Part shown: piece by piece, positions 39,483 to 60,730 of the stretch | Position numbering within the stretch: position 1 is the stretch's first letter | Layout of the letters: every line of letters starts with the position of its first letter | NCBI GenBank assembly: GCA_023381615.1 | Contig: JAMCQL010000066.1 | Location: 1 to 64,000, forward strand | DNA from: Bacteroidota bacterium | GTDB taxonomy: Bacteria; Bacteroidota; Ignavibacteria; Kryptoniales; JAKASW01 | Direction: 5' to 3' | Length of the DNA stretch: 64,000 nucleotides | Made by a program: the position numbers and the translations under genes | Notes under the pieces: model-generated | Database searches by the model: none | What the model was told of the DNA's origin: nothing | What the model saw: the letters and a program-made list of their open reading frames with translations, nothing else

Positions 39483-41930
39483 TTATTTTACAAGTACCAT
39501 GCTCTTCGTGCTCATAAATCCATTGACTGCCAGCCTGTAGAAATACACACCACTCGGCAATTTACTTCCATCAAATGTCACGCTGTAGCTTCCTGCGTTT
39601 CGCTGCTCGTTCACTAACGTAGCCACTTCCCTGCCGAGAACATCGTATACCTTCAAACTCACAAACCCAGAGCTCGCAACTCGAAACTTTATTGTTGTTG
39701 TCGGATTAAACGGGTTCGGGTAATTTTGCAGTAGACCAAATTGCGTCGGGGTTTCACCGGTCGAGGCAACCCATGTAGGCGCAGCCGTCCTAAACCTCCA
39801 GGCACTCGACCATAAGCTGAATCCGTAAGGGTTTCCCGAGCTTACCCTCCAATTGTAAATTGTATAGGCGCTCAGAGAATCAACCATCGTGAGAGAAGTG
39901 TCGGGAGAAGCTATTGTGGTGTCAACCACGAGTGAACTGAAGTCCACCGATTTTGACAGTTGCAATCTGTACTTTGCGGTGATATTTGTCGGGTGCCATG
40001 TAAACACAGGGAGCAAAGGTGCATTCGTAAGAAGGTTAGCTGGACCAGCAAGAAGAGGGGCAATCGGGAAACCAGTTGTAAACGAGCACGCATCGGAATA
40101 ACCGCTCCTGCCGCCCGCGTTCCCTGCCGATAATCTCCAAAAATATTTTTGCCGCCCATTCATTCCTGTTACTGCAAATGAAGTATCGGTAATACCCGTC
40201 AGATTCACGAGAAGATTTTGAGAAAAAGTGGAGTCTGCAGAAACCTGCAGGGAATAAGATGCCGTGAGCGGCGGAGATTGCCACTGCAAGACGGTCGTAT
40301 CTCGAGCATTCATGAAATTGTTAGAAGGAGAAGCCAGCAAAGGAACCGACGGTGAATAGACAGGAATGACCTTGCCCCTCTGACTTTCATTCCAATTCCT
40401 GTCCAAAGCGGTAACTGTATAATAATACGGACCGCTGCCCGAAGGGATCACAGGATTGCTGCTCGCAACTCCAACTACTGACAAAATATTTTGTGCACTT
40501 TCAATGTCTGCAGAAGAGATACCCGTCGAAGATCCCGCTTGCGGGAAATGATTAAACCTGTAGACAACATAACGGGAGGCGGTGTCTCCATCCGAAGCGG
40601 TAACTGGTACATCCCAATAGAGCTGGGGAGGAGCCGAAGCAATCTGTTGGTATCGCAAGTTTTGCGGCGCATTCGGCGGAATCACATCTTTCCATCCCAT
40701 GCTTGGTACGAGTGCGGGATACCTGTAATAGTACTGCCGCAGTGAATCAGAAAAGTTTCCTAAATTACTAGTGAGACTTGTCGTGTTGAAAAAAATCGAT
40801 CCTTGGACATCAGGATTGGACCTATTTTGAATCAATTGTCTTTCCATTTCACCGCTAGTCCAGTTTGGAATCCGGTAGGCGGCCTGCCCAATATAGATAT
40901 GTCTCCCGTTCGCCGCAGCGGAATCTGCCCACCATGGCATGAGCTTAGCGTAATCCTGCCCGCCGCCGTTCGGCCAGTACAACTGCGGCGCGAGGTAATC
41001 AACTGTCTTTCGCTGGAGCCATGTCATGGCGTCGGCGTACAGGACGCTGTAGGCATCCAAACCGGATGTACCCGACGGCACGCCGCTTTTCCATATTCCG
41101 AATGGGGAGATGCCGAATTTAACCCATGGCTTCACAGCCTGAATGCTGTCGTGAACTTCTTTCACAAAAAGATTTACATTGTCCCGCCTCCAGTCACCGA
41201 TGTCGGTGAAGCCGCGATTGTAAAGCCTGAAAGCAGCTGTATCCTGTGTTGTGATTCCTTCATAAGGATAGAAGTAATCGTCAAAATGAACGCCGTCAAT
41301 ATCGTAGCGACGAACGACATCCATGATCACGGATGTAATGTAATCTCTGACTTGAGGAAGACCGGGATTGAGTATTTTCAATTTTCCAAATTTCAGAATC
41401 CAATCAGGGTGTCTGACTGTGACATGCGTTGAATCGGGCACGTCGTACACCTGAGATGTATCTCTAAGCGCTCGATAAGGATTGAACCATGCATGAAGCT
41501 CCATCCCCCGTTTGTGTGCTTCCTGAATTGCAAACTGGAGCGGATCATAAAAAGGAATGGGTGGCTGCCCTTGCTTTCCGGTAAGCCAATACGACCAGGG
41601 CTCAATGCTCGATTGGTAGAGTGCGTCGCACTCAGGACGTATCTGGAAAAACACGGCGTTGATCCCCATCGACTTTAACTGGTCGAGAATGCTTATGAGT
41701 TGTGCCTGCTGCTGAGATGATGGCAGCCCAGGTTGAGAAGGCCAGTCGATATTTACCACGGTTGCGATCCATGCACCACGCAATTCACGCTTGGGCGGAG
41801 CTAAACCGAAAATCAGATCCTGTGATGTTCGGCTTCCGAATCGTTCTGTTCGGGAATTTGAAAGCTGCGCTGAAGAAACACCTGTGAAGGAAGTTTCGAC
41901 GAAAAGCAAGACAAGTAATAAGTATCTCAT
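39483..41930 (-). CDS. GHL10-type glycosyl hydrolase-like protein with T9SS domain
   Basis: Protein of 815 residues: signal peptide (MRYLLLVLLFVETSFTGVSSAQ), a GHL10/DUF187 domain (about 45-375; ELRGAWIATVVNIDWPS, INAVFFQIRPECDALYQSS, HAWFNPYRAL, YDIDGVHFDDYFYPY), then fibronectin-like domains (about 415-715) and a sorting domain (QNYPNPFNPTTTIKFRV). ATG 41930 has GGAG upstream. This family includes lipoprotein and surface glycosidases acting on peptidoglycan or other glycans. Substrate unknown. Confidence 0.88.
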   Translation of the reverse strand: MRYLLLVLLFVETSFTGVSSAQLSNSRTERFGSRTSQDLIFGLAPPKRELRGAWIATVVNIDWPSQPGLPSSQQQAQLISILDQLKSMGINAVFFQIRPECDALYQSSIEPWSYWLTGKQGQPPIPFYDPLQFAIQEAHKRGMELHAWFNPYRALRDTSQVYDVPDSTHVTVRHPDWILKFGKLKILNPGLPQVRDYITSVIMDVVRRYDIDGVHFDDYFYPYEGITTQDTAAFRLYNRGFTDIGDWRRDNVNLFVKEVHDSIQAVKPWVKFGISPFGIWKSGVPSGTSGLDAYSVLYADAMTWLQRKTVDYLAPQLYWPNGGGQDYAKLMPWWADSAAANGRHIYIGQAAYRIPNWTSGEMERQLIQNRSNPDVQGSIFFNTTSLTSNLGNFSDSLRQYYYRYPALVPSMGWKDVIPPNAPQNLRYQQIASAPPQLYWDVPVTASDGDTASRYVVYRFNHFPQAGSSTGISSADIESAQNILSVVGVASSNPVIPSGSGPYYYTVTALDRNWNESQRGKVIPVYSPSVPLLASPSNNFMNARDTTVLQWQSPPLTASYSLQVSADSTFSQNLLVNLTGITDTSFAVTGMNGRQKYFWRLSAGNAGGRSGYSDACSFTTGFPIAPLLAGPANLLTNAPLLPVFTWHPTNITAKYRLQLSKSVDFSSLVVDTTIASPDTSLTMVDSLSAYTIYNWRVSSGNPYGFSLWSSAWRFRTAAPTWVASTGETPTQFGLLQNYPNPFNPTTTIKFRVASSGFVSLKVYDVLGREVATLVNEQRNAGSYSVTFDGSKLPSGVYFYRLAVNGFMSTKSMVLVK

Positions 41931-41982
41931 CTTTTGATCTCCATACTTCCCTCTTCTTTCATGAGTGCAAATTGCAACCGAT

Positions 41983-43197
41983 TTATTGTAACCCATAATA
42001 TGGAGCACCTTGCTTCCTTGCCACAATCTTGAGAAGCTCACCAGACAAGGTTGCGGCATAAAGATCAGTTCCAATCCAGGCGAATGATCTGCATGGCGAA
42101 TTCAAGACACCGCTCGTCACATACAATGAGTAGGGTTTCTCGACGAATCCGCCGGGGTGAACAACTATCAAATAATCTGAAGAGTCTGTGCCAGTGTACA
42201 TATTTCCGTCAGCAGAGAATGTTATTGCGTAAATGTTGCTTCCGCCGGCAGGATCGCTGGAGATATCGAAATAAACCTCCGGAGTCCCAAGTGAATCATT
42301 CACAACAGGCGCTCTAAAAACTTGGCTTGGAGCCGTTCCGACATTTGCCGCGAAATAGAGGTATCCATTGTAGTATCTGACGGATCGAACGTTTCCGGAG
42401 AAGGGAAACCCTTTGATGCTTGCACTGGGCGTTATTCTGTAAATATACTGGCTGTTTCCTCCAACCCAGAGGTTTTGGTTCGGATCAAAGTCCATGTCAA
42501 GAAACAAGCCTGAAGAAATGGTGACCCAGATTTGGGCATTACTGCCGCCGCCGGGAGCGAATCTATAGATCGCCCTATTTCCTCTGACCCCATAAAGATA
42601 TCCTCCGCTGCCGAACTTCATCCCGTTCCAGCCAATCGCTCCAGATGTTGCGGGAGCGTACTGACTTATCCCCGCGGATGTTGTCCTAAAGATCCCCCTG
42701 TCGACACCGTTTGAAGAAATCGCCGTGTATAATGCTGAATCGGGCCCTTCACAGACGGCATAAGCAACTTGAGGAGACTTGAGGTTGCCGAACTGAGAGA
42801 TGCCAGCTACAAGTTTGTATACAACAATTGGGCTGTAGAGCAAAGCGCCATTCACGGTAACTCTGACGGCTATACTGTCCCCGGGTGTCGCAGGCGCCTT
42901 TATTATAATTCTATTTGCGTTTCCGCTAACAATAGGGACAATGGTTGAATTGAAGAAAACCAGTTCCTGCTGGACATCGGAGGAGAAATTCTTACCGTAG
43001 ATCGTAACCGTATCGATTCCGGCGAGTGCGCTTCCGGAAGGAGAGAGGCTATCGACAACAGGGTTCGGCAGGTACTGCTGGCTTGGATCGTAGAGACTCG
43101 GCGTCGTCTGCGGCTTGCAGCCATTCACATTCAAGGAAATGACGGCAAACAATAAAACAGCGGACAACTCAACAGCGGTTTCAAAAATCCTTTTCAT
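41983..43197 (-). CDS. TIG-domain/propeller lipoprotein (set A)
   Basis: Protein of 404 residues with lipoprotein signal (SAVLLFAVISLNVNGC), an IPT/TIG domain (about 45-125; PVVDSLSPSGSALAGIDTVTIYGKNFS) and a six-to-seven-bladed propeller-like region with repeats such as GSGGYLYGVRGNRAIYRFAPGG and DPNQNLWVGGNSQYIYRI. It is a full-length paralogue of the product of 52451-53689. GAGGAAAG precedes ATG 43197. Both paralogues follow a TonB receptor and a large secreted protein, so they probably belong to the surface part of an uptake complex, by analogy with SusE/F. Confidence 0.8.
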   Translation of the reverse strand: MKRIFETAVELSAVLLFAVISLNVNGCKPQTTPSLYDPSQQYLPNPVVDSLSPSGSALAGIDTVTIYGKNFSSDVQQELVFFNSTIVPIVSGNANRIIIKAPATPGDSIAVRVTVNGALLYSPIVVYKLVAGISQFGNLKSPQVAYAVCEGPDSALYTAISSNGVDRGIFRTTSAGISQYAPATSGAIGWNGMKFGSGGYLYGVRGNRAIYRFAPGGGSNAQIWVTISSGLFLDMDFDPNQNLWVGGNSQYIYRITPSASIKGFPFSGNVRSVRYYNGYLYFAANVGTAPSQVFRAPVVNDSLGTPEVYFDISSDPAGGSNIYAITFSADGNMYTGTDSSDYLIVVHPGGFVEKPYSLYVTSGVLNSPCRSFAWIGTDLYAATLSGELLKIVARKQGAPYYGLQ

Positions 43198-43278
43198 GTT
43201 GCTTTCCTCAATGCATTTGGATTTGGTGCAAAGGAGATAACGGCAGTTCCTCCCGGCAACAACGGCAAAGTTGATCTA

Positions 43279-45444
43279 TCATCGAATGATTATGCATTTC
43301 TGGAACGCCGTATCACCTTTCCGGTATTTGAGCTGGCCAGTCGTCGGGTCGGTGTAATCCTGCGTCACCGTGAAATGGACTATGTACACGCCGCTCACGA
43401 CGACCTGACCTGAGGAAGTGTTTGATAGCCAGGTTTCATCTCCGCTTCCGTTGTCGTGGATAATTGTCTTGATCAAATTCCCATTCTCAGTGTAAATCCG
43501 GATGATGCAGTGGCCTGGAATGTTTAGAAACATGATCTTGTCAGATTCTCCTGGGAATTGCAGTTGCGCGGATCTGATGTTGTACGGGTTGGGTACAATC
43601 CTGATGTCCGAAAGACTTCCACCAGCCTGTCGTCGGAGATATGCGGCTATGTTGGTTTTTGTGTAGAATCTGCTGCTCAGCAACGGCCCTGTCGGGTTTG
43701 GCAGGCCAGAAGTGTTGTTGCTTCCATCGCTGAAAGCTGAGATGTAATAATAGTATGAGAAACCTCTTTGAGCCGTAACATCGTCGAACTGAGTGGTGCC
43801 TGGAGGCAGCGTGGCAATTTCATCGAATGTTGTGTCAGGCGTGCCCACCGCACGAAAAATCTTGTAGCCGCCGAACCCAGGACTGCTTTCGGAAGGGCTA
43901 TGGCCCCAGGTGAGACTGATCCGGTCGCCACCTGAGGTGACATTGAATATCGGAGGTGGTTGCGGCGGTTCCGGAATATTATACCCAAGGTCATAATTTC
44001 GTACGGCTCGGCTGAAGGTCAGCATGATAGAATCCATTCCGGTGTATACCCAAGTATCCTTGTAAACATCCTTATCTGTGGTTGTTGATCCGTCCGGCAG
44101 TGTAAATGGACCCTTGTCACTTGAATTCTTATATGCCTGCCACCATCGTTTGCCTATTTGCCAGCACATCTGCCGACTTAACCCGCTGACCCCTACGGCA
44201 ATCACGATGTTAACACTGTCGCCCGGGTTGATATCCCACGGTCCATACGCCATCCACATTCCGGTTCCGCCGCCGTCACCATGGACTTTCCATGGATCTC
44301 TGAAGCTGGAGCTATATTGCTCGTAGAACCTCGCAGTGTCGTTGCCCATGCCCTTGTACGGAATGCCGCTCAATAGAGCGTAGCAGTCAGCCTGTCGTGG
44401 GGCTGTAGACGGTGACATGTCTCCGAGGCTCGGGTACGTATCTCCGGCATGCCAGCCCAGGACACATGGCTGGTCTACATCGTCTGTCTTATCGGCGGTC
44501 GTCTTATCTGCGTGAAGAGTCACAATGCCGGCGAATTGAGGAGAACACAACCTGCCGGTTCCGGCACCCGAAAAGGCACCATCCGGCGAGCCGATGTTGT
44601 CATACGAATTTTCATCTCTCTGTCCAGTCCACTCGAAACCGGCACGGAGCCATTCAGGGATGGGACTTGACTCGGTGAGACTTGAGAGCTCGTTTGCATG
44701 TTGGGCATAGTCTTCACCGCGTCTTGTTGTCCAACTATGCTTCCCATATTCCTGGTCGTAACCCATCTTATCCGCACCCTCACGGCAGACGCTGTAACGA
44801 TTCATAAAACCGAACCGGAATCCTTTGACAGGCACATTGAGCACCTTTTGGTTTGTGGAGTTGACGAAACCCGTATTCTTGAAAGTGTATTCTATGATGA
44901 AGTAGTTATCATGGTACTGCTGGCTGAAACCAAGGACGCGCCTGGTCATCGTGATACCCATCGAGGTATTCACCACGTCTGTGACAATTCGGTCTGCTAT
45001 CTGATTCGCATCGATACTGTCAACATCTCCACTGTATGGAGCGCTGACATTAACTCCGTCCACGTAAACCGTAGGGTTGGCAAATTTTGCCGTTTCCTTC
45101 AGCTCGGTCGGGAAGACCGAAACCCCGGCATAGGCCATGTTAATAGCAGCACAGTAGTTAGGCCACTTTTGTCCGGAAGAGTCGGTGAAATCCTGAGAAC
45201 CGATCCACGTCCTTTCGATGACGGCGTTGTCCTGGTAGAGATAATCCGACGGCCAGGTCAGTCCTTCGTAGTAGACGTTGTTCCAGGCTCTCTCCGCACC
45301 AATAGCAGTGAACTTGCTCTGAAGCGAACCAACCCGGATATATCGTGTCTCAGTTCCTGTCAACTGGGCCGACAACGGATGAGCGGCGAATAGCAAACAA
45401 ACTGCAGTAACAAGAGCAACTAAGCATTTGTGTGAGCGAAGCAT
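43279..45444 (-). CDS. Large secreted protein with T9SS-like tail (set A)
   Basis: Protein of 721 residues from ATG 45444: signal peptide (CLVALVTAVCLLFAAHPLSAQ), a long unique region (VGSLQSKFTAIGAERAWNNV to about 500), a fibronectin-like domain (ISLTWGHSPSESSPGFGGYKIFRA) and a C-terminal domain with IVPNPYNIRSAQ, GNLIKTIIHDNGSGDETW and SGVYIVHFTV, a variant T9SS-type tail. It is paralogous to 55050-57671. Longer in-frame starts (to 45666) exist and would read through the repeat at 45511-45590. I infer a surface-exposed partner of the TonB receptor encoded just upstream. Confidence 0.78.
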   Translation of the reverse strand: MLRSHKCLVALVTAVCLLFAAHPLSAQLTGTETRYIRVGSLQSKFTAIGAERAWNNVYYEGLTWPSDYLYQDNAVIERTWIGSQDFTDSSGQKWPNYCAAINMAYAGVSVFPTELKETAKFANPTVYVDGVNVSAPYSGDVDSIDANQIADRIVTDVVNTSMGITMTRRVLGFSQQYHDNYFIIEYTFKNTGFVNSTNQKVLNVPVKGFRFGFMNRYSVCREGADKMGYDQEYGKHSWTTRRGEDYAQHANELSSLTESSPIPEWLRAGFEWTGQRDENSYDNIGSPDGAFSGAGTGRLCSPQFAGIVTLHADKTTADKTDDVDQPCVLGWHAGDTYPSLGDMSPSTAPRQADCYALLSGIPYKGMGNDTARFYEQYSSSFRDPWKVHGDGGGTGMWMAYGPWDINPGDSVNIVIAVGVSGLSRQMCWQIGKRWWQAYKNSSDKGPFTLPDGSTTTDKDVYKDTWVYTGMDSIMLTFSRAVRNYDLGYNIPEPPQPPPIFNVTSGGDRISLTWGHSPSESSPGFGGYKIFRAVGTPDTTFDEIATLPPGTTQFDDVTAQRGFSYYYYISAFSDGSNNTSGLPNPTGPLLSSRFYTKTNIAAYLRRQAGGSLSDIRIVPNPYNIRSAQLQFPGESDKIMFLNIPGHCIIRIYTENGNLIKTIIHDNGSGDETWLSNTSSGQVVVSGVYIVHFTVTQDYTDPTTGQLKYRKGDTAFQKCIIIR

Positions 45445-45726: not shown

Positions 45727-48700
45727 TCAAAAAGTAGCTCTGATGCCGAAACTGAAATGGCGAGGGTTAAGAAATGTCACAGATGCGTCATTCGGCATGT
45801 TTATGTATGATTTCGTCGCCATTCTCCTGTTATTTGCGGCGGTGATCGCCGGATCGTTGGTCGGGTTGGGTTGGAGCGGATCGTATGCCACGTCCGACGG
45901 ACGGTAATCACCAATCCGATCATTCCCTTTTTGAATCCCATCTTCCCATGGGAAGCGGAGTGAAGCTAAATAATCCTGGTAATCGTACGTATCCACGAAG
46001 CCCGCCTGATTGAGATATTTGAAGTTGAATACGTTCGTGATGTCCATGTAGACCTGCAAATCCATCCCGCGAACAGGGAATGCTCGGAGATCTTTCGCCA
46101 GTCTCATATCAACATTGTAATAATCAACCCACTGAACATTGCTTGCCACTCCCGGTGTATTAGTGGGATTGTAGGTAGTATGGGCCCCCGATTGCCAAGC
46201 GGCAAGGAGGCTGAGACTCCAGCCGCCAAGCGGGTTTATGCCCATCACGTTTGGACCAAATGTCTCCGGCGTGACGAGCTCAATGTTAGCCCTGGCATAC
46301 GGCTGAGGAACAGGCTTCGACTGCTGAGGGTTTAGCATAAGATAAGCCCGCTGCTTGTTTATGTCCTGGTAGTATTGAGTCACGCCGAAGTATCCCGATG
46401 TTACTACATCGTAAGTATAATTGATGAACCCCCTTATCCAACCTCCGGTGATCTTCGATAATGTCGCTTCGAAACCACGGATGTCCGCGTAGTTGTTGCT
46501 CGCCGCTTCACGGTAGTTAACCGAAGTGTTGATGTTCTGGTAGAGAATCCAGCCGGGTTGGTCAGATACATCCTTATAGTATGCCGCTAGATGCAAGAGG
46601 AATTCGTTGAAAACATTCTGCTCATAGCCAAGCTCATACGCAATTGTTTTCTCGTAGTTCATATCCGGATTACCCATGTAGTCCACCTGACCATTGGACT
46701 CTCGCTGAATCAGGAACCTGTACGATGACGATGGCTCGGAGACGAAGTGTCCGTAATTGAAATATAGTTTTGAGTTTTCTGTGATGGGATGCGAGATACC
46801 AAGCCGTGGACTGACATAGAGATCTGGAGTGGCCTTCTGCTGCGGAGCTTTTTGCTCAAGCCGATTCCCTTGTCCGGCGCTGAAGAGTGCACTGTAAGGA
46901 TCGAGATTATAGTAATCTGTATTGGGATTGGAATAATCGAGCCTGACCCCAAGGTTTGCGATGAAACCCTGAAACTCGAGTTTGTCTTGAGCATATCCCC
47001 CGAGTCGGTAAGGCGAAATGTGGTATACCAGACTCCTTGTCCATGTGGACATCGACGGGCTGTAGGTTCCAGAATTGATATTCAGGTCATCGTAATAGAA
47101 CTGGAAACCGGACTTAACTTGATTATACTGGCCCAACTGGCTGGTAATGCTGAATATCAGAGAGGTGGTCGAGTTTACGCTCTTGTCACGACCCAAGTTC
47201 ATCCATCCTCCCATGCTCATGACACCGTCGATGGCTCCCGTGCTGTAGCCCCAGTAACCATACGGTGACTCGTCAACGAAATACCCTGGCACCGGCTGGT
47301 ATATTTTTGATGTATCGCGAGTGGCTGTCTGAAATGTGTTGTACCGGCTTTGGTTGCGCTGGATTGATATGTCGTAGAAGGTTGTGGGGCTTAACACATG
47401 CGTTAGCGAAGCGCCGATCACGTACCGATAGACCGAGCTTGGGCTATACCGGCCTGGCATATACAAAGCGTTCATCCCGTCGGTGCTACTGAGGAGGTCG
47501 GCCACTTCAGACTGACTTCTCATCAGGTAACCAGTGGGCGCTGTTGTCCACTCATACGGGGAAACAGAATTGTTCTCTCCGTAGATACCCATTATGGTGA
47601 GCTTCATGTTTGGCGTGACATCAGAATTGAGTTTTAATTCTATGTGATTATCGGTGTATGCGTCGCGGGAAAGGGGAATTACGAACATATCCCTTTCAGC
47701 GAAATAGGAGAGGTAAAAGCGGAGATTGCCTAGTTGTTGTCCGACCAAAGGAACAGGTCCCCCGAAACCTGCATCGATAGTGTAATCTGGCTTGGTGATA
47801 TCGCCTGCCCGGCGTCGCTGCCACTCCCATAGCTTCTGAGCCTCTGTCGGGGTGAGATCATTCGCAGGATTATTGTCCTGGAGTGTCTTCTGGGCAATGG
47901 CATTCCAGCCCTGGAATGCGGGATAACTCTCCTGTGTGTATAGATCCCACGCCCCATTATTTGTACCGGTCCAGCAAACAGCGGGGTCGGTGAACGGGCG
48001 GTTATAATATGAATTCGGATCATAGGGGGATAGACCGAAATGCTTTTGCTGCGGTGGCCCATAACTGACATTTACTGTGGCGCCATAACGATTCCGATCT
48101 CCATCCTTTGTTATGACGTTTACAATACCGGAGCGAACGTTACCGTATTCAGCGCTGAAACCACCTGTCTGAACTTGAATCTCCCGCGCCGAGGACAAGC
48201 TGACTGCGGCATAAGGAATGTTCGACCGTTCATCGTTAAGTCTGAAGCCATCAACCACGTAGATAGTTTGGTTCGCACCTCCGCCACGCACGAGGATGCC
48301 GCTGCTTCCTTGTTGAATCCCGGCCTGCAAATCAAGAACAGCTGCTATGGTCTGAACCGGCATTGTCTCGACATTCTTTGTCTGAATATTAAATACACTG
48401 TTTGAGACATCTTTTGCCACCACCGGGCGCTGTGCAGTAATGACAATTTCTCCCGTGATCAGAGCCGTTGGACGCAGCTGTACGTTGATCGTGGAGGTCA
48501 GATCTATTTCAACTCTTGCACCTTCGACAATGGTCTTCTCATAACCCATCATGCTGAACCTGACCTTATATGTGCCTGGTGGGACGTTCAGAATTGCGTA
48601 TGAGCCATCGATACCCGTAGATGCTCCAATCGATGTCCCTTCGACCATGACGGTCACCCCAGGCAGCGGTTGGCCGCTCTCTGCATCGGTTACTTTACCC

Positions 48701-48783
48701 GCAATCTTTCCCGTTGTTCCCGCGAAGACGAGAGCAGAGAAGCCAGACATTATCATAATTAATAAAACTGGCACATTCTTCAT
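45727..48783 (-). CDS. TonB-dependent receptor (set A)
   Basis: Protein of 1018 residues: signal peptide (VPVLLIMIMSGFSALVFA), carboxypeptidase-regulatory-like domain (about 22-105; GKIAGKVTDAESGQPLPGVTV), plug (VRGGGANQTIYVVDGFRLND, SGIVNVITKDG) and barrel ending FLNPRHFSFGIRATF. ATG 48783 has GGAGAGGAG upstream. Paralogous to 57686-60730. Followed by the large secreted protein and TIG lipoprotein rather than SusD, so it is a SusC-like but SusD-less transporter. Substrate unknown. Confidence 0.9.
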   Translation of the reverse strand: MKNVPVLLIMIMSGFSALVFAGTTGKIAGKVTDAESGQPLPGVTVMVEGTSIGASTGIDGSYAILNVPPGTYKVRFSMMGYEKTIVEGARVEIDLTSTINVQLRPTALITGEIVITAQRPVVAKDVSNSVFNIQTKNVETMPVQTIAAVLDLQAGIQQGSSGILVRGGGANQTIYVVDGFRLNDERSNIPYAAVSLSSAREIQVQTGGFSAEYGNVRSGIVNVITKDGDRNRYGATVNVSYGPPQQKHFGLSPYDPNSYYNRPFTDPAVCWTGTNNGAWDLYTQESYPAFQGWNAIAQKTLQDNNPANDLTPTEAQKLWEWQRRRAGDITKPDYTIDAGFGGPVPLVGQQLGNLRFYLSYFAERDMFVIPLSRDAYTDNHIELKLNSDVTPNMKLTIMGIYGENNSVSPYEWTTAPTGYLMRSQSEVADLLSSTDGMNALYMPGRYSPSSVYRYVIGASLTHVLSPTTFYDISIQRNQSRYNTFQTATRDTSKIYQPVPGYFVDESPYGYWGYSTGAIDGVMSMGGWMNLGRDKSVNSTTSLIFSITSQLGQYNQVKSGFQFYYDDLNINSGTYSPSMSTWTRSLVYHISPYRLGGYAQDKLEFQGFIANLGVRLDYSNPNTDYYNLDPYSALFSAGQGNRLEQKAPQQKATPDLYVSPRLGISHPITENSKLYFNYGHFVSEPSSSYRFLIQRESNGQVDYMGNPDMNYEKTIAYELGYEQNVFNEFLLHLAAYYKDVSDQPGWILYQNINTSVNYREAASNNYADIRGFEATLSKITGGWIRGFINYTYDVVTSGYFGVTQYYQDINKQRAYLMLNPQQSKPVPQPYARANIELVTPETFGPNVMGINPLGGWSLSLLAAWQSGAHTTYNPTNTPGVASNVQWVDYYNVDMRLAKDLRAFPVRGMDLQVYMDITNVFNFKYLNQAGFVDTYDYQDYLASLRFPWEDGIQKGNDRIGDYRPSDVAYDPLQPNPTNDPAITAANNRRMATKSYINMPNDASVTFLNPRHFSFGIRATF

Positions 48784-52289: not shown

Positions 52290-52392
52290 TTTGTACCTCC
52301 TTAAGTAATTTGTTTGTAGTGACAAATAGGCCGGATGTTCATTTATCCGACTCGCGAAGAAACTAACATTGGATTAACACCACCTCCTCTTG

Positions 52393-52441: not shown

Positions 52442-52450
52442 AATAATAGT

Positions 52451-53689
52451 TTATTGAATTCCATAATATGGAGCACTTTGTTTTCTTGCCAAAATTTTGA
52501 GAAGTTCACCAGACGACGTAGTTGCATAAAGATTAGTTCCAATCCAGGCAAATGATTTGCACGGCGAATTCAACACACCGCTATTCACGTACAGTGAATA
52601 TGGTCTCTCGACAACCCCGCCTGGGTGGACAATTATCAAGTAATCCGAAGAGTCCGTCCCCACGTACATATTTCCATTGGCGGAGAACGTTATTGCGTAA
52701 ATGTTGCTCCCGCCGGTAGGATCGCTGGAGAGATCGAAATACATTTCCGGAGTCCCAAGTGAATCATTCACAACAGGTGCTCTAAACACTTGGCTTGGAG
52801 ACGTTCCGACATTTGCTGCGAAATAGAGATATCCGTCATAGTATCGGACCGATTTAACGTTGCCGGAAAAAGGAAATCCTTTGACACTTGCGTCCGGCAT
52901 GATTCTGTAAATGTTCTGGTTATTTCCGCCAACCCACAGGTTATGGCTCGGGTCATAGTCCATATCAGAAAACGAACCCGAGGAAATGGAAGCCCAGATT
53001 TGTGCGTTGGTACCCCCGCCGGGAGCAAACCTGTATGCTGCTCTCACTCCCTTCACAGCGTAGAGATATCCGCTCGGACCAAACTTAAGCGCCGACCAAT
53101 ACACGTTTCCGGTTAATGGAGGGGCATATTGGGTCTTCGTGCCATCAGGAGTTATTTTGAATATCCCTTCATCCTTAGTGCCGGTAAGGTTGGCATTGGA
53201 AAGCGACACATATAGATTTGAGTCGGCTCCTGTGCAAATGCCGTATGCGGCCTCGCCGGAGGCCAACTTGCTGAACGGGCTGATCGCTGCCTGAAGGCTG
53301 TAAGTGACAGTCGAGCTGAAATCTACTGCTCCAATTACAAACACCCTGACTTGTATGGTGTCTCCCGAAATTGCAGGCGCCTTCACCATCAGCCTATTCG
53401 AAGAAGCGCTGATGATTGATGGGCCGTTAATAAGTATCGAATTAAAATAAACACCGTCGCTGTCCTTGTCGGCTGAAAAATTCTTTCCATAAATTGTCAC
53501 AGTATCTATGCCGGCGAGTGCACTTCCGGTGGGAGACAAACTGTCCACGACGGGTTGCGGCAGGCTCTTCCAGTTCGGGTCATAGAGAATAGGATTCTCA
53601 GCCGGCTTGCAGCCGTTCATTTGCAATGACAACGCCAGAAGAGTCGCGATCGCCATCAATGCTGTTATAGCTTTAAGAGTTTTCTTCAT
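52451..53689 (-). CDS. TIG-domain/propeller lipoprotein (set B)
   Basis: Protein of 412 residues, paralogue of 41983-43197 throughout: lipobox LSLQMNGC, IPT/TIG domain (PVVDSLSPTGSALAGIDTVTIYGKNFS) and propeller repeats (GPSGYLYAVKGVRAAYRFAPGG, NLWVGGNNQNIYRI). The 3' ends of the two genes are especially similar in DNA. Follows the set B receptor, large protein and PorV-like genes in the same direction. Confidence 0.82.
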   Translation of the reverse strand: MKKTLKAITALMAIATLLALSLQMNGCKPAENPILYDPNWKSLPQPVVDSLSPTGSALAGIDTVTIYGKNFSADKDSDGVYFNSILINGPSIISASSNRLMVKAPAISGDTIQVRVFVIGAVDFSSTVTYSLQAAISPFSKLASGEAAYGICTGADSNLYVSLSNANLTGTKDEGIFKITPDGTKTQYAPPLTGNVYWSALKFGPSGYLYAVKGVRAAYRFAPGGGTNAQIWASISSGSFSDMDYDPSHNLWVGGNNQNIYRIMPDASVKGFPFSGNVKSVRYYDGYLYFAANVGTSPSQVFRAPVVNDSLGTPEMYFDLSSDPTGGSNIYAITFSANGNMYVGTDSSDYLIIVHPGGVVERPYSLYVNSGVLNSPCKSFAWIGTNLYATTSSGELLKILARKQSAPYYGIQ

Positions 53690-53748: not shown

Positions 53749-55044
53749 TTAATAGGCAACATTGAATGAAAGCCTCTGCACATTCGCGAAGCCGCCTGTG
53801 AAAGGAGTCCATGAATAGTCAATGCCAAGATTGACGCCTCCGATGTTTTCATGAACACCAACTCCGCCTGCAATGCCGTACACGTTGTTGTTGAACATAT
53901 ATCCTGCGCGCAAGGATACTATTTGCATGAAAGTGTATTCTGCGCCGACGTTAACCTGCTCGGGAAAATCACGCGGATGTGTGGCATCGACCGCCACTGT
54001 CAATGACTGACTCTTACTGTCAATATTCCACATATCGAGAACGTTCATCGAAATCCCGAGGTTGAAAATGAGAGGGAGGCCGAAGGTCTCTTGTACATAT
54101 TTGAGTTCGCGAGCGAAGTTTCTCACGTCCATACCAAAAGATAGACTCTTGAATCCCGTTCTATACAGCATGCCGAAATCGAAAGAGACAACATTTAGCT
54201 CCTCGCCAGTCTTCACATAGCTTCCGTCACTATTGATGTTCGTTATGCTTGCACCAAGGTTCTGCGTGACGTAGTTAATGTTTCCACCGATAGAAAACTT
54301 GTCACTTAGAGCTTTCGCATACCCAATCCCGGCTGAGAATGCAGTTGGCGAAAATGTCCCCACATCTAGAAATCCCTGCGCATTGTTCGCGATGATTGTC
54401 TCCTCCAAATCACCATAGTTCACAGACCGAAAATTGAAACCGATAACACCGTATTCTCCGCTAAAGGGGGCAAACGCCGCGCTTGCGAAAAAGTGTTTAA
54501 TGCCCGCAATCCAATCTACTTGTCCTACGGAGATTTCCGCCGCGTTTGTGATCCTCGCCATTCCGGCAGTATTGAAGAACATCGAGTTTGAATTGCCGTC
54601 CAAAGATGTTACCGCTTCCCCCATCGCTTCAGCGCGTGGATCAGTAGTAACATTTAAGAAGTCCATACCTGCCTGAGCGAGCTTTTGCTGCGCGAATGAG
54701 GAACTCACAGAAAAGAAGGCGATGACCAAAGCGGAGACTGTAAGAGACCGTCTGAAAATAATTGAGAAAGCACCACCCTTTGTCATTCCCGCACGTCTTC
54801 CCGCTCCAATTATTTTATACAAGTGTGCGGGATCCCTTCGGGACAAGCGGGAATCTTTCCTTTGTTCGGCATGAGATTCCCGATGCCGCCTTGTGGCATG
54901 CCGCATACTCATATAGAATAATTGAGCGGCATAAAAGCATTCGGGAATGACACTGCGTACTCCTTCGAAAGCTTCGAGTAGTCTTTTTCTCGATTGAATC
55001 GTTCGAGAATGACATTTCTTGTTCATTTTAGTTTCCGTTTTCAT
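53749..55044 (-). CDS. PorV/PorQ-like outer-membrane protein (copy B) with repeat-lengthened N-terminus
   Basis: Family core: FAQQKLAQAGMDFLNVTTDPRAEAMGEAVTSLDGNSNSMFFNTAGMARI and a barrel to FANVQRLSFNVAY. From ATG 55044 (AGGTGA five bases upstream) the protein has 431 residues, with about 86 low-complexity basic residues before the signal peptide; these are encoded by the repeat at 54781-54952. Starting at ATG 54786 would give 345 residues and an ordinary signal peptide (RRSLTVSALVIAFFSVSSSFA). The upstream gene ends just before, so coupling to 55044 is plausible. True start unknown. Confidence 0.78.
   Translation of the reverse strand: MKTETKMNKKCHSRTIQSRKRLLEAFEGVRSVIPECFYAAQLFYMSMRHATRRHRESHAEQRKDSRLSRRDPAHLYKIIGAGRRAGMTKGGAFSIIFRRSLTVSALVIAFFSVSSSFAQQKLAQAGMDFLNVTTDPRAEAMGEAVTSLDGNSNSMFFNTAGMARITNAAEISVGQVDWIAGIKHFFASAAFAPFSGEYGVIGFNFRSVNYGDLEETIIANNAQGFLDVGTFSPTAFSAGIGYAKALSDKFSIGGNINYVTQNLGASITNINSDGSYVKTGEELNVVSFDFGMLYRTGFKSLSFGMDVRNFARELKYVQETFGLPLIFNLGISMNVLDMWNIDSKSQSLTVAVDATHPRDFPEQVNVGAEYTFMQIVSLRAGYMFNNNVYGIAGGVGVHENIGGVNLGIDYSWTPFTGGFANVQRLSFNVAY
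54781..54952. repeat. Inverted-terminal-repeat element within a gene start
   Basis: Ends are tgtcattcccg (54781-54791) and cgggaatgaca (54942-54952). Inside are gcgggatccc/gggacaagcggg and gattcccgatgcc/ggcat dyads. A further end-like copy cgagaatgaca lies at 55004-55014. Same family as 57534-57612. The reading frame of the PorV-like gene stays open through it. Confidence 0.7.
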
Positions 55045-55049
55045 GTGGG

Positions 55050-57671
55050 TCACCTAATGACCACGAATTTTTTAATTGCAGTCTGGCCCGTTGGGGTCTG
55101 GAACACGACGATGTACACTCCGCTGACGACGATCTGGTTGGAAGAGGTTGTAAGATTCCAATACTCGTCGCCACTTCCATTTGCATGCTGAATTGTCTTA
55201 ATTAGCTGCCCCAGCTCCGTGTATATCTTGATGGTGCAAACGGGTGGGATATTCAGGAATCCGATCTGATTCGGTTCGCCGACGTAGCGAAGCAGATTCG
55301 GGTTGGATCCGAGGTTGTAGGGGTTGGGAACGACCCTGATAACGTCGCTCAAACTGGCGCGCGTTTCCTGGTTCTGGTTGATCGAGTAGTAGAGGGTATC
55401 CGGTCCTTGTGCACTTGAAAGTACGAGCTGCCCGATACTGGGCGGGCTGGCAGTCCCCGTACACCGGATTGTTCCGGTGTAGCTGTATATGTACTTGTAG
55501 GTTGTATCTATTTCCCCACTCGGCAGCGTGTCTATTTTCGCTATTGCTTTCGTCTTAATAGAATCCAAGAACGATAGACTTGCCAACTGGACGGTAAATA
55601 TGTTGGCGCCGGAGGTATAAACCGCATAGGTCGGCAGAGTGGTTATTGATTTGCTGTGCGTTGAGTCAATCTGGAAGACAACCTTCACCGGCTGCGAAAC
55701 GCCGGGCCGCAGCAATTTTGCCGGGTCGTAAGTCTGCGTATAGTACCTGCTGCTTTCAAGTGCTACGCCTGCGGGTGTATCCCCGGCCCCGTTGTTATCC
55801 GCAGGGTCTCCAACCGAAACGATGTAGTAGTAGTAATCAAAACCGCGAATGGCAGATTGGTCGTCATAACTTGTGACGTTCGGGCCGCATTGATAAAGTA
55901 ATGTGTATGCGCTGTCAACCAATCCCTGCGCGCGGTAGATCTTGAATCCTGTCAACTTTGGACCACCGGGAGCAGGAGGAGTCCACGAAAGGGCGATCTT
56001 GTTTCCTCCTGAGGTGACCGTGAAAAGCGAAGGCGGGGCCGGAGGTTGGGGTATATCATAGCCGGAATGGTAGTTTGCAAGAGCCCTCCTGAATGTCTGG
56101 AAGAGGGAGTCCCTGCCGGTGTAGACAGAATCATCCTTCTGCGCAGCTGTTATTTTCCCCAACTTAAATTCGCGTCCGATTCTTATAGTTGCTTCACGGC
56201 TGAGTCCAGCTGCACCTTCAGCCATAACAATGTGAATCCTTTGTCCGGGAGCGAGATTGTAAGGTCCATACCCGTTCGCAACAGACAGCCCGCCAGTTGT
56301 GCCGCGGGAAGGATCGCCCCCCAAACCCGTTAGATCCGCAAGCCGCTGACCCTGCCAGGAAACTGAGCTGTTGATCCAACCCACACCGTGGCCTATTGAC
56401 ATCAGCTGATATTCCAACTGCATCTTGGTACTATTGAATTGGCTGTTCTGTGAGTTCAACGGGTCGTCTGAACTTACGTAGCAAGTCGTAGTGGGTTCGG
56501 CTGGATCATCGGTGGTATCAGTGGCAGAGTTGTCGGCGTGGAGAGTCGCAACACCTATAAACTGGGCGGCACCGAGCCTGCCAGTTGTATCAGTTGCGGG
56601 CGGTCCCGGTTGTGCAGCAGACTGCACCCAAATCGGGCCTCCGATGTTGTCACTCGGCGGCGCTCCAGCCACACTAAGACCCGGCATTCCGGTTAACGAA
56701 AAACTTCCATACGAAGGGTTGTTGAAGTTGCCCAGCCAAGAGTATTGTGCCCTGATATCATTGTCTTTGTTTGGTGGTTGGTTCGTAAGCACATCTGAGC
56801 CGAAGAAGGTAGACGAAGGATTCAATCCGTCGCCGCGTGTGTCGCAGTCAGTCCCTATTCCCCAGCCTGCGGCGTTTCTCCCGATCACATACCGAGTCTC
56901 AGCACATACCGCGTAACGGTATTGGTAGAAAATACGCAGGCTGTCAAGAGGCTGGTTCGACGTATTTATGAAAGTGTAGTCATAGATTACATAATTATCA
57001 TGGTACTGCTGACCGAATCCGAGGATTTTTCTGACCATGGTAAGGCCGATCGATGTGAGCACGCTGTCGTATATCAAACGATCCTCTTTCAGACTCGGAT
57101 TTACATTGTCGACATCGGGCGGAATATTGTATGAGGGACTCCCGTCCACAGTCACCTGGGGGAGGGGAAACCTGTCTGTGGTGGTAAATGCCAAAGGTAC
57201 AAACTCCGACGCATCGCCGTCGTATCTGGGTCCAAAGTGTACGACCTTGAATGGCCACACGGTACCCGACGCATCCTTCCAGTTCCTCACTCCAATCCAC
57301 AATCCTTTTGCTGCCTCCATGTCTTGATTGGGATAGATTGCTGGCCATCGGTCGCCATCCTGCTGTACCAAAACTCTTTGTTCTTCATATTCGCATCCTG
57401 CATTCGAATACCAGCTTTGAAAGGATCCTATATCCATCCACTTTGTCGCGTACTGAGCGAACGCGGAACTGCTTAAGAAAAGGAGCGTAAATACCATGGC
57501 ACAAAGCGATTGCCCCAAAAAACCACAACCCTTTGTCATCCCCGCATGTTCCAAGCGGGAATCTTTTCTTTCTCCAATGGAAGATTCCCGACAAGAGCAT
57601 TCGGGAATGACATTGACCACTTTTTTGACAACCACTTTTCCGCAATGACCTGTTTCGATTCTCAATTTCAT
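55050..57671 (-). CDS. Large secreted protein with T9SS-like tail (set B)
   Basis: Protein of 873 residues, paralogue of 43279-45444: KWMDIGSFQSWYSNAGCEYEEQRV at the mature start, a fibronectin-like domain (IALSWTPPAPGGPKLTGFKIYRA) and C-terminal VVPNPYNLGSNPN, GQLIKTIQHANGSGDEYW and SGVYIVVFQT. AAAGGTGAG just before ATG 57671 fixes the start, immediately after the receptor stop. About 50 residues, partly encoded by the repeat at 57534-57612, precede the signal peptide (AMVFTLLFLSSSAFAQ); a start inside the repeat would remove them. Probably a surface partner of the receptor. Confidence 0.78.
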   Translation of the reverse strand: MKLRIETGHCGKVVVKKVVNVIPECSCRESSIGERKDSRLEHAGMTKGCGFLGQSLCAMVFTLLFLSSSAFAQYATKWMDIGSFQSWYSNAGCEYEEQRVLVQQDGDRWPAIYPNQDMEAAKGLWIGVRNWKDASGTVWPFKVVHFGPRYDGDASEFVPLAFTTTDRFPLPQVTVDGSPSYNIPPDVDNVNPSLKEDRLIYDSVLTSIGLTMVRKILGFGQQYHDNYVIYDYTFINTSNQPLDSLRIFYQYRYAVCAETRYVIGRNAAGWGIGTDCDTRGDGLNPSSTFFGSDVLTNQPPNKDNDIRAQYSWLGNFNNPSYGSFSLTGMPGLSVAGAPPSDNIGGPIWVQSAAQPGPPATDTTGRLGAAQFIGVATLHADNSATDTTDDPAEPTTTCYVSSDDPLNSQNSQFNSTKMQLEYQLMSIGHGVGWINSSVSWQGQRLADLTGLGGDPSRGTTGGLSVANGYGPYNLAPGQRIHIVMAEGAAGLSREATIRIGREFKLGKITAAQKDDSVYTGRDSLFQTFRRALANYHSGYDIPQPPAPPSLFTVTSGGNKIALSWTPPAPGGPKLTGFKIYRAQGLVDSAYTLLYQCGPNVTSYDDQSAIRGFDYYYYIVSVGDPADNNGAGDTPAGVALESSRYYTQTYDPAKLLRPGVSQPVKVVFQIDSTHSKSITTLPTYAVYTSGANIFTVQLASLSFLDSIKTKAIAKIDTLPSGEIDTTYKYIYSYTGTIRCTGTASPPSIGQLVLSSAQGPDTLYYSINQNQETRASLSDVIRVVPNPYNLGSNPNLLRYVGEPNQIGFLNIPPVCTIKIYTELGQLIKTIQHANGSGDEYWNLTTSSNQIVVSGVYIVVFQTPTGQTAIKKFVVIR
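57534..57612. repeat. Short inverted-terminal-repeat element within a gene start
   Basis: Ends tgtcatccccg (57534-57544) and cgggaatgaca (57602-57612), inner dyad aagcgggaatctt/aagattcccg. Same family as 54781-54952 but 79 bases long. Both lie in the 5' coding part of their genes and are read in the same frame (translation contains IPEC and RKDSRL in each). Confidence 0.7.
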
Positions 57672-57685
57672 TTTTTGCTCACCTT

Positions 57686-60600
57686 TCACGGTATGTCATA
57701 ACTCAATTTGATGCCGTAATAAACTGTTCTCGGATTTAGAAAAGCTAATTGCCATAGATTAGGCATGTTGATGTAAGGTTTACTGGATGACTGGTAGTCT
57801 CCGGGCCTGTCGTTGCCTGGGGTATTAATATATCCGAAGATTCGGTTTGTTGAATCGCCCGCGATTGAAGCAGGCAGGTGGAGAGACATCATGTACGCAA
57901 TGAAGTCGTTGTAATCGTAAAACCCGTAGTATGGAGACATGTATTTGAAGTTGAAGACATTATAGATATCGGCGAACAAGTTCAAATCGACACCATAGAT
58001 ACTGAAGTCCCGGCTTATTCGAAGGTCGAAGTTGATATAATCTGTCCATTGAACGTTGTATTGTATACCTGGGATTTGTCCGCCGCCTGACCAGGTGAGC
58101 CACTGCCCCGCCTGCCAGTTGCCGAGGAGATTGAAATGCCAGTCTGCCAGCGGTTTGATCCCATTCCAGTTCGGACCAAACCAGTTTGGTGTGAAAAAGT
58201 CTAAGTTCAATCTTGCATACGGCTGCGGAATAGGCTTTGTCTGGTATAGATCCGTGTAGTTAGTTATGTCAAACTGTCGCTGGTCCGCCGGGCTTTGATA
58301 CTGATTGCCGAACCCGAATCGGCCATAACTATTTGCCATATATGTATAGTCCACGAAGCCCTGCAGCCAGTCGCCCCGATCCTTGGAAATGGTTATCTCG
58401 AAACCTCTGATGTCCTCATAATAGTTAGGTGTGTACAGCGTATAGTTCACTTTTGAGTCTGCACTTTGGTAAGCTGTACCGAACGATCTGCTACCGATTG
58501 CAAGTCCACTAGGGGTACCCGTCTCGTTTGAAACATCTTTGTAGTAACCTGCAATATGAATCAAGAATTGATTGAACAAGCTTTGCTCGAAACCCAGCTC
58601 GTACGCAATCGTCCTTGGTAACGGATTATTCGGGTTGGCTACTAAGCTGACGTTGTTAGTCCCCGTTAGCCTGCGAATAAGATACAGGTCATTGGGGTCA
58701 GGCATGGAATAGAAATGTCCGTAGTTGAAATATAGTTTTGAATCTACCGTTACGGGGAACGATACTCCTAATCTTGGCTCTACCATGATGATGTCTTTAG
58801 TCGGTGCCTTGGATACGGTATCAAGCCCAATCAGGTCGGACCCGGAGAAAATAAGAGAATAAGGATTGTCGATGCTGTACCAGAGACCGCCCGCGTGAGA
58901 ATAATCCATTCTAACACCGAGGTTTGCTATCATCCCTTCAAACTCCAATTTGTCCTGCAAATACAGCGCTGCGCGGACAGGAAATGTATGCCAATGCGAT
59001 TTCGATGTTCCTGTGGGAAGATACGTATCGACAGTACCGTAGTTTACATTGTTGTCTGTGTAGTTAAACTCCATGCCGGTCTTTATCTGGTTATACTGGT
59101 CAACCTGACTCGTCAAGTCGAATCTTGCATTATATACAGCGATCTTGCTGGTGTCACGTCCGGTGCTCATTCCGACACTCATCCTCATTCCGTCAATTGC
59201 ACTGGACGGGTATGGCCAGAACCCGACCGGGGCCTCGTCGGTAAAATAATAGTTTCCAAACTGGTAAATTCGGGAAGTGTCCCGGAGCGCCCCCGGATCG
59301 GTGTGGTACTGCGACCCGAACTCACGCAAGGTCACATCATAATACGTGGAGGAAGAAAGCATCTGCGATAGTCTCGCTCCCACCATATTAAAGTTGACTT
59401 TCGTGGGAGCCCAATAGTCATTGGTGAACATGCGAGCATCGATATAACTTATTTGGTGTAACACACTTGAAATGCCTGAGCTTGTTTGAAAAATTCCGGG
59501 CTGTCCGGCGTTGCTGCTGCTCGTGCCGGTCTGTTGGCCTAACATCCCTTCAAGATTCAACGTCATTCCCGGTCCGACATCGGAAGTCAATTTCAATGAG
59601 CCATTATAATTCCGATAGGCGTCGGTCGCCAGCGGAATCATATACATCGACTGTTGACTTGTATAAGACGCCCAGAACCGAAGATTGCCGAGGTCTTTGC
59701 TCAGAACCGGGAATGGCCCTCCGAGGCTTGCATCTATATTGTAATTCGGCTTCAGCACGCTAAAATCTTTTCGATGCTGCCACTCCCACAATCTTTGGGC
59801 TGCAGTAGGGCTGAGATATTTCGTTGAGTCTCCCGATATCATTGACTGCTGCGATACGTTGATCCATCCGGGGAACTGAGGATATTGCTGCTGAGTGTAA
59901 GCGTTCCAGGCACCATTATTAGTCCCGTAATACGCCACGGCAGGGTCCATGTAGGGCCTCACATAATAGAAATCCGTCGAATTGAGTGCGCCCGCAAAGT
60001 TCTGCTGCTGCGGAGGTGCAATTCGTGTAAGCAAGCTTATTGTGTAGTGACTGGCACTCCCGTCTCTCGTGACAACGTTGACTACACCTGAACGGATATC
60101 ACCATATTCTGCATTGAAACCACCAGTTTGGATCTGGATGTCCTTGACGGATGTGTAGCTTATTGTGGTGTACGGAGCATTGTTTCGCTCATCACGAAGG
60201 GTGAATCCGTCGACCATGAACGCGGTCTGGTCGTTTCCGCCGCCGCGAATGACGAGTCCGCCTTGGACGCCTGCTTGCAACCCAATCACCGCGGTGACGT
60301 TGACGGCAGGTATCGACTGAATTTGAGACGAACTCAGGTTTGTTGTACTTGCAGACACATCTTTCTCAATGACGGGTCTCGTGGCGACCACGGTCACTTC
60401 GTGAGTAGTTATGGCGGCTTCGGACAGACTCAGATTCAGAGTTGTGGTCTCGTCGATGTTGACGCGGACGTCTTCAACGGCGGTAGTTGCGTAACCGACC
60501 ATCGAAGCCTTCACCCTGTAGTTACCCGGCGGGACATTCAGAACTACGAAATAACCATTGAGGTCCGTCGATGCGCCGAGCTTCGTTCCTTCAATCACCA

Positions 60601-60730
60601 CCGTGACGCCGACAAGCTTTTCGCCTGTCTTCGCATCTGTAACGGTTCCAGAAATCTTACCTGTCGTCCCGGCAAAACTTATCGCCGCCACCGTCAAAAT
60701 GAAAAAGCAACATACGACAAGCTTACTCAT
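57686..60730 (-). CDS. TonB-dependent receptor (set B)
   Basis: Protein of 1014 residues: signal peptide (MSKLVVCCFFILTVAAISFAG), carboxypeptidase-regulatory-like domain (GKISGTVTDAKTGEKLVGVTVVIEG), plug (VIRGGGNDQTAFMVDGFTLRDE, SGVVNVVTRDG) and barrel ending FLNPRTVYYGIKLSYDIP. AAGGAG stands seven bases before ATG 60730. It is paralogous to the set A receptor. The ROK regulator gene ends about 200 bases upstream on the same strand. No SusD gene follows. Confidence 0.9.
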   Translation of the reverse strand: MSKLVVCCFFILTVAAISFAGTTGKISGTVTDAKTGEKLVGVTVVIEGTKLGASTDLNGYFVVLNVPPGNYRVKASMVGYATTAVEDVRVNIDETTTLNLSLSEAAITTHEVTVVATRPVIEKDVSASTTNLSSSQIQSIPAVNVTAVIGLQAGVQGGLVIRGGGNDQTAFMVDGFTLRDERNNAPYTTISYTSVKDIQIQTGGFNAEYGDIRSGVVNVVTRDGSASHYTISLLTRIAPPQQQNFAGALNSTDFYYVRPYMDPAVAYYGTNNGAWNAYTQQQYPQFPGWINVSQQSMISGDSTKYLSPTAAQRLWEWQHRKDFSVLKPNYNIDASLGGPFPVLSKDLGNLRFWASYTSQQSMYMIPLATDAYRNYNGSLKLTSDVGPGMTLNLEGMLGQQTGTSSSNAGQPGIFQTSSGISSVLHQISYIDARMFTNDYWAPTKVNFNMVGARLSQMLSSSTYYDVTLREFGSQYHTDPGALRDTSRIYQFGNYYFTDEAPVGFWPYPSSAIDGMRMSVGMSTGRDTSKIAVYNARFDLTSQVDQYNQIKTGMEFNYTDNNVNYGTVDTYLPTGTSKSHWHTFPVRAALYLQDKLEFEGMIANLGVRMDYSHAGGLWYSIDNPYSLIFSGSDLIGLDTVSKAPTKDIIMVEPRLGVSFPVTVDSKLYFNYGHFYSMPDPNDLYLIRRLTGTNNVSLVANPNNPLPRTIAYELGFEQSLFNQFLIHIAGYYKDVSNETGTPSGLAIGSRSFGTAYQSADSKVNYTLYTPNYYEDIRGFEITISKDRGDWLQGFVDYTYMANSYGRFGFGNQYQSPADQRQFDITNYTDLYQTKPIPQPYARLNLDFFTPNWFGPNWNGIKPLADWHFNLLGNWQAGQWLTWSGGGQIPGIQYNVQWTDYINFDLRISRDFSIYGVDLNLFADIYNVFNFKYMSPYYGFYDYNDFIAYMMSLHLPASIAGDSTNRIFGYINTPGNDRPGDYQSSSKPYINMPNLWQLAFLNPRTVYYGIKLSYDIP

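Follow-up and report, generated by a model that had tools for sequence, protein, structure and literature searches.

In Bacteroidota, the SusCD pair is treated as a mark of polysaccharide uptake loci, and SusD itself is an all-helical TPR protein. In the type IX secretion system (T9SS), the tail of PorZ is kept and bound to PorQ, and the tail of PorU is likewise kept, according to excerpts of one account (PMC10202324). The alginate locus of Rhodothermus marinus comprises tonB, hypA (T9SS type A sorting domain), hypB (PorV/PorQ family) and hypC, and the excerpted account gives hypA and hypB by annotation only, with no role (PMC9530828). In the R. marinus xylan cluster Rmar_1070 to Rmar_1073, genes for hypothetical proteins come after a receptor gene, next to xylanase genes (excerpt of PMC6987092). 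Here we analyse a window of 64,000 nucleotides (the whole stretch under study: contig JAMCQL010000066.1, positions 1 to 64,000), in which genes for a TonB-dependent receptor, a large T9SS-exported protein and a PorV/PorQ-family barrel form a locus without SusD. We confirm that this receptor–large protein–barrel architecture, hereafter the module, is real, conserved and broader than an initial annotation of the window had said. That annotation knew it as no described system; no paper recognisably presenting it as one was found in the full-text literature available to us, which leaves out most subscription papers and all preprints, yet the same triple is annotated in the excerpted R. marinus alginate locus (PMC9530828).

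The window carries the following two sets of genes, B and A:

57686..60730, minus strand: receptor B (P0010), a TonB-dependent receptor with CarboxypepD_reg and Plug domains, below the SusC/RagA cut-off
55050..57671, minus strand: large protein B (P0009), with a signal peptide (read by eye), a predicted beta-supersandwich, Fn3 and a PorZ-like T9SS tail; the longest open reading frame (ORF) extends to 57689 and the exact start is uncertain
53749..55044, minus strand: PorV/PorQ-family barrel B (P0008)
52451..53689, minus strand: TIG/propeller lipoprotein B (P0007)
50970..52325, minus strand: NHL-like protein with an ordinary T9SS type A tail, the fifth gene of the conserved set
49630..50700, minus strand: PorV/PorQ-family barrel A (P0005)
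45727..48783, minus strand: receptor A (P0004), with CarboxypepD_reg and Plug domains; longest ORF to 48813
43279..45444, minus strand: large protein A (P0003); longest ORF to 45666
41983..43197, minus strand: TIG/propeller lipoprotein A (P0002)

All genes named in the initial annotation are present where it placed them and their family assignments hold; for both large proteins, barrel B and receptor A it began the gene at a start codon inside a slightly longer ORF. To the set that it proposed we add the NHL/T9SS gene (50970-52325), and a gene for a GHL10 glycosyl-hydrolase-like protein is often part of the conserved set as well. The paralogy of sets A and B is supported by BLASTP identities of 43% between the receptors, 43% between the barrels and 66% between the lipoproteins; the large proteins align at 34% over 640 columns, with a 53% segment across the tail.

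The module recurs within the host genome (G000, 86 contigs), from which 15 stretches were chosen through PorV, SusD and large-protein hits. The order receptor, same-tail large protein, barrel is found at set B and at four more places (L015, L016, L018 and L021), and L025, at the end of a contig, has a receptor together with a T9SS protein and a large protein. At L019:8317-12775, only a gene of the 23S rRNA-intervening-sequence type, and no large protein, lies between receptor and barrel. Large-protein matches (E <= 1e-10) are present in 20 of 20 genomes of the order. We surveyed 46 large-protein genes in 55 stretches of the order, 40 of them stretches of relatives that hold a large-protein match or lie next to one, using receptor and barrel profiles built from the host genome's own members. 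A receptor lies no more than 1.8 kb upstream of 42 of the 44 large-protein genes with enough flank, and a barrel no more than 300 bases downstream of 39 of 43; many of the sister large proteins were recognised by the tail, so module classes may be unlike one another in the remainder of the protein. Of the five exceptions, three are loci of the set A type (the window's own, L061 and L065), which have the barrel upstream of the receptor instead; the remaining two are L087 and L088. Unusual arrangements of large-protein genes include one receptor flanked by two of them (L087:4497-14344) and two in tandem behind one receptor (L162:6976-11418).

The same arrangement extends across phyla. Scanning the large-protein alignment against one genome per species (84,980 species) gave 263 relatives. 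We retained 79 distinct loci, whose titles name Ignavibacteria, Rhodothermales, Balneolaceae, KSB1, Calditrichaceae, Neomarinimicrobiota, Delongbacteria, WOR-3 and others. These loci contain 92 large-protein genes of at least 400 amino acids, of which 85 had enough upstream and 75 enough downstream flank: a receptor lies within 1.5 kb upstream in 83 of the 85, and a barrel within 2.6 kb downstream in 62 of the 75. For 9 of the 13 genes without a downstream barrel, the next recognised gene is a second receptor or a TIG lipoprotein; further ones were truncated or missed by the gene calling. By locus (n = 79), the receptor is found in 73, the barrel in 66, the lipoprotein in 61, the NHL/T9SS gene in 43 and GHL10 in 24, counts that are lowered because longest-ORF gene calling misses genes in some loci (L118, L122 and L172). 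Of the initial annotation's four-gene order, the receptor, large-protein and barrel families are kept together in related lineages rather than mostly apart. Nine loci carry small putative lipoproteins of about 200 amino acids, of at least two families, between large protein and barrel (for example, L140:7725-8321, L154:14976-15563, L158:7977-8555, L161:7576-8184, L115:12036-12656 and L128:12040-12657); the four that were scanned gave no Pfam match.

The large-protein family is present in 27 of 118 genomes sampled from the phylum (E <= 1e-30). Two single-contig genomes, G049 and G083, carry the full series of receptor, large protein, PorV-like barrel, TIG lipoprotein, NHL protein and GHL10 (loci L178 and L180; G083 is probably the genome of locus L132, as the coordinates match), and the bare triple occurs twice each in G022 (one contig, one receptor split into two frames) and G027 (two contigs). 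Binning artefacts are therefore not the cause, and chance is excluded because the module recurs in the genome, the order and other phyla. A viral origin was rejected, as a scan of viral contigs found no relative.

The initial annotation saw no SusD at the locus, and relatives bear this out: a conventional SusD neighbour was sought and none was detected, with 0 of the 79 loci matching a profile that is weak, having been built from two sequences. Directly after each window receptor comes the large-protein gene, not SusD. Across the 20 order genomes there are 22 SusD matches (E <= 1e-3; 19 over the cut-off), all on contigs other than those with listed large-protein matches, and 6 of the genomes have no SusD match at all. 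The window receptors score 77.9 and 75.4 bits against the SusC/RagA model TIGR04056 and fall below its cut-off of 368.25, whereas the SusC proteins of two genuine SusC–SusD pairs elsewhere in the host genome pass with 493 and 519 bits. The same 20 genomes contain 238 PorV-family matches (E <= 1e-20), so that, with SusD so sparse or missing, SusD-based searches would miss module loci.

We asked whether partners stay together where a locus holds more than one pair. Two receptor–large protein pairs occur in 17 loci, including the window, some of them cut by contig ends. A quartet test, which scores for each pair of two-pair loci whether receptor and large protein favour the same paralogue assignment, gave 123 agreements, 1 disagreement with both values near the threshold, and 12 uninformative cases. 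Between receptor and barrel across paralogous modules of the order, 227 quartets agree, 0 disagree and 293 are uninformative, and the other five partner comparisons in the order show 0 or 1 disagreement. The genes for receptor, large protein and barrel travel as a unit, and partners are almost never swapped between paralogous modules; the test controls for the species tree rather than for linkage, and is not proof of contact. Receptor and large-protein trees correlate globally (r 0.925); because shared descent explains this, it was not used as interaction evidence. The initial annotation called the locus duplicated. Two paralogous sets are indeed present, but local duplication was set aside: corresponding pairs recur in other lineages with consistent partners, and sets A and B therefore look like an old two-pair locus shared with those lineages.

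The fold of the large protein is predicted for protein B. No Pfam domain above cut-off was found in P0009 or P0003; both have a signal-peptide-like N terminus, read by eye. AlphaFold2 modelled mature protein B with a mean predicted local distance difference test score (pLDDT) of 82.2 and a predicted template-modelling score (pTM) of 0.78, and its N-terminal 465 residues alone with a mean pLDDT of 87.2 and a pTM of 0.90. Foldseek matched this N-domain to 28 solved structures at E <= 1e-3, carbohydrate-active enzymes and one putative aldose epimerase; the enzymes include cyclic glucan synthase, GH94-type phosphorylases, GH116 and dextran dextrinase. We take these enzymes to share a beta-supersandwich (galactose-mutarotase-like) domain. 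An Fn3 domain is also supported, and large protein B is accordingly modelled as a predicted beta-supersandwich, Fn3 and PorZ-like tail, not as a SusD fold. The latter was rejected: the models are beta-rich, SusD is all-helical, and no SusD is among the 50 Foldseek matches listed.

This fold raises the alternative that the large protein acts on its own at the surface as a glycan binder or an enzyme, sharing only its regulation with the receptor and forming no complex with it. Its N-terminal resemblance to carbohydrate-enzyme domains would suit such a role, and GHL10, among other T9SS proteins encoded in the operon, probably stands alone. GH94 and GH116 enzymes have a helical catalytic barrel after the sandwich; the model of protein B, unlike these, has none there. 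The strict pairing with the receptor and the similar conservation of the two (mean identities of 0.515 for receptor and 0.517 for large protein, against 0.341 for the lipoprotein, in 21 of the 79 loci) further suggest dependence, and we regard independence as quite unlikely. In the same 21 loci the tail is conserved at 58%, against 52% for an ordinary T9SS tail, and unusually strong tail conservation was dropped as proof of a dedicated partner.

The tails of the large proteins are of a particular type. The initial annotation described both large proteins as T9SS-tailed. P0009 passes the tail model TIGR04183 (26.2 bits, cut-off 23); P0003 falls below it (13.8 bits). The 53% identity segment shared by the two runs over the tail. 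In a profile comparison, the large-protein tail is homologous to ordinary T9SS tails but distinct from them (96.4% probability, E 1.1e-9). Of the 58 large proteins, 37 match the PorZ model (within the tail in the first member, the one for which a position was given), against 0 of 34 ordinary T9SS proteins, 32 of which come from related loci and two from the window; for the generic tail model the figures are 10 of 58 and 34 of 34. Against the full-length PorZ model NF052228, P0009 matches by its tail only (20.4 bits, cut-off 260). Both window barrels pass the PorV/PorQ family model NF033709 (P0008 with 170.9 and P0005 with 190.6 bits, cut-off 90). P0008 scores 78.2 bits to PorQ and 74.3 to PorV, and the barrels of four other host modules reach 96 to 104 bits against PorQ and 68 to 91 against PorV; the canonical PorV encoded beside PorU in the host genome scores 248.5 to PorV and 69.9 to PorQ, and SprA is also present.

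Because the PorZ tail is held by PorQ, a PorZ-like tail leads us to see in the PorV-like protein a tether and not just a shuttle; by this analogy the barrel may be a PorQ-type tether of the large protein. The initial annotation had proposed delivery by a locus-specific PorV-like protein; the barrel family and the dedicated gene stand, and the tail favours a lasting tether over a shuttle. The opposing possibility is that the PorV-like protein is a substrate-specific shuttle to the sortase, the tail being removed and the protein, anchored or released, still acting beside the receptor. The barrels do belong to the PorV/PorQ family, PorU beside canonical PorV together with SprA makes sortase processing available, and P0005 scores slightly higher to PorV (78.3 bits) than to PorQ (76.4). 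We nevertheless consider a shuttle unlikely, since the large-protein tails match the PorZ model and ordinary T9SS tails do not, and a separate copy for each large protein would not obviously be needed alongside canonical PorV.

Further genes lie within or near the two sets:

39483..42074, minus strand: GHL10 glycosyl-hydrolase-like protein with Fn3 and a T9SS tail; the true start is probably downstream of the longest-ORF start
48968..49429, minus strand: IS200-like (Y1_Tnp) transposase gene between barrel A and receptor A
36147..37367, plus strand: AnmK, anhydro-N-acetylmuramic acid kinase, a neighbour whose adjacency is not conserved
60933..62126, minus strand: ROK-family protein with weak N-terminal winged-helix matches, upstream of receptor B and a possible regulator

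In relative L061, a PD-(D/E)XK-family gene occupies the junction between barrel A and receptor A that the transposase gene holds in the window, so this junction seems to accept inserts. The lipoproteins P0007 and P0002 have one TIG domain each and weak Reg_prop (propeller) matches; at 66% identity, with nearly identical C-terminal halves, these two (41983-43197 and 52451-53689) are far closer than the other A/B pairs, and gene conversion is possible.

Our best single guess for the cargo of the window locus, held somewhat short of even confidence, is peptidoglycan fragments. Among loci 20 kb or longer, 15 of 30 have GHL10; the expectation is about 2.4%, calculated from 78 GHL10 matches in about 70 Mb of the order, a background that comes from a separate group of genomes and a different detection method. 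At L103, L109 and L120, an NlpC/P60 protein with an SH3 domain and an enolase-superfamily gene come after GHL10; pairs of these two kinds degrade cell-wall peptides. Amidase_3 is found in 4 of 116 neighbours (the ones scanned out of 198 listed, same-strand genes only, with 25 of 139 families listed). In the window, two same-strand genes follow GHL10, the one lacking any Pfam match and the other T9SS-tailed, and the AnmK gene lies about 2 kb from GHL10. DigH of Escherichia coli is presumably a GHL10 member. Excerpts of the literature report that it acts on peptidoglycan (PMC12288456), that Cwp19 of Clostridium difficile is a lytic transglycosylase (PMC6016235) and that DogH uses starch (PMC9967864), the last two papers mentioning GHL10.

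Sister triples adjoin other genes: L070 lies beside GH88, glucuronate isomerase (UxaC) and DUF4861, L093 beside a GH3-beta-lactamase and a BcrAD/BadFG-family ATPase, L016 beside GH94 and L090 beside an M14 peptidase. The modules of G022 and G027 and one of G049 adjoin FG-GAP/ASPIC or TPR genes, which suggests a different cargo or role; at L176, L177, L179, L181 and L182, all in one- or two-contig genomes, the triple sits among FG-GAP/ASPIC-UnbV and TPR genes. Given these neighbourhoods, a glycan cargo for every module was rejected: glycan uptake fits many sister modules, not all. The same neighbourhoods would accommodate a surface-display or sensing device in place of uptake, in which the receptor has a signalling role or assists in placing surface proteins. 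Other modules, though, sit with saccharide catabolism genes, and the alginate locus has the triple, which makes display or sensing very improbable.

Whether the locus as a whole is a SusD-independent outer-membrane nutrient-uptake module with a tethered large-protein partner, peptidoglycan-derived material being the likeliest cargo, is in our judgement an even call. In such a module the TonB-dependent receptor would be the channel, and the large protein would be exported by the type IX system, keep its PorZ-like tail, stay fixed to the cell surface through the PorV/PorQ-like barrel of the neighbouring gene and work with the receptor as a surface binding partner, the SusD-like job that the initial annotation proposed for it. 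The TIG/propeller lipoprotein, the NHL/T9SS protein and the GHL10 hydrolase would bind or trim substrate outside, and sister modules would serve other substrates. We infer the physical complex of receptor and large protein, the tethering and the cargo. A broader proposal, which we hold as doubtful, is that in lineages of the Fibrobacteres–Chlorobi–Bacteroidetes (FCB) group outside classical Bacteroidia a two-barrel outer-membrane complex replaces SusCD, made of a TonB receptor and a T9SS supersandwich lid whose uncleaved tail is held by its own PorQ-like barrel, and that the ancestral two-pair version with lipoprotein, NHL protein and GHL10 scavenges peptidoglycan fragments.

Several observations weigh against the uptake module with a tethered partner. 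As to the tether, 21 of the 58 large proteins have no PorZ match at 1e-3, and the PorU model is matched by 20 of the 34 ordinary T9SS proteins; as the PorU tail is retained, likeness to a retained tail does not alone show retention. P0008 and P0005 both fall below the equivalog cut-offs for PorV (NF033710, 250) and PorQ (NF033711, 220), P0005 has its slight lean towards PorV, and some two-pair loci have one barrel for two large proteins. As to the partnership and the fold, linkage alone could produce partner fidelity, Foldseek gives low TM-scores over the query (0.17 to 0.37), and 13 of the 20 order genomes match only the C-terminal part of P0009, the fold being predicted for protein B alone. 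As to cargo, AnmK lies next to the module in 1 of the 20 order genomes (judged against large-protein matches) and was rejected as a conserved part of the locus, and the FG-GAP/ASPIC or TPR surroundings in G022, G027 and G049 point elsewhere.

If the uptake module is as proposed, nutrient-uptake complexes have fixed components that come from the type IX system, and the module explains part of the 7 to 16 PorV-family genes found per genome; in the host genome, 6 of the 13 PorV-family proteins above cut-off belong to triples or to set A. The receptor–large protein–barrel triple is a simple marker for SusD-less loci and points to an overlooked route for taking up large nutrients.

Among described systems, the excerpted alginate locus has a TonB-dependent receptor, a T9SS-tailed protein and a PorV/PorQ-family protein in the same order, with no SusD in the figure legend; its enzymes are alginate lyases, and hypA is likened to the large protein by annotation only. 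The xylan cluster, from its excerpt, also places hypothetical proteins after a receptor, Rmar_1071 and Rmar_1073 being T9SS-tailed and Rmar_1072 carrying no barrel assignment in the excerpt, but it includes a SusCD pair (PMC6987092). Like SusC–SusD loci, the module begins with a TonB-dependent receptor with an N-terminal carboxypeptidase-regulatory-like domain, followed by a surface-protein gene, and several modules have glycan enzymes nearby; unlike them, it has no SusD, and the partner combines a predicted beta fold with a T9SS tail and a barrel gene. With PorZ–PorQ, and with PorU–PorV, the module shares a T9SS-tail protein that has its own PorV-family barrel, and many module tails match PorZ. 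It differs in that P0009 matches PorZ by the tail only, that the module barrels do not reach the PorQ cut-off, and that each genome has several copies of the pair, linked to a TonB receptor.

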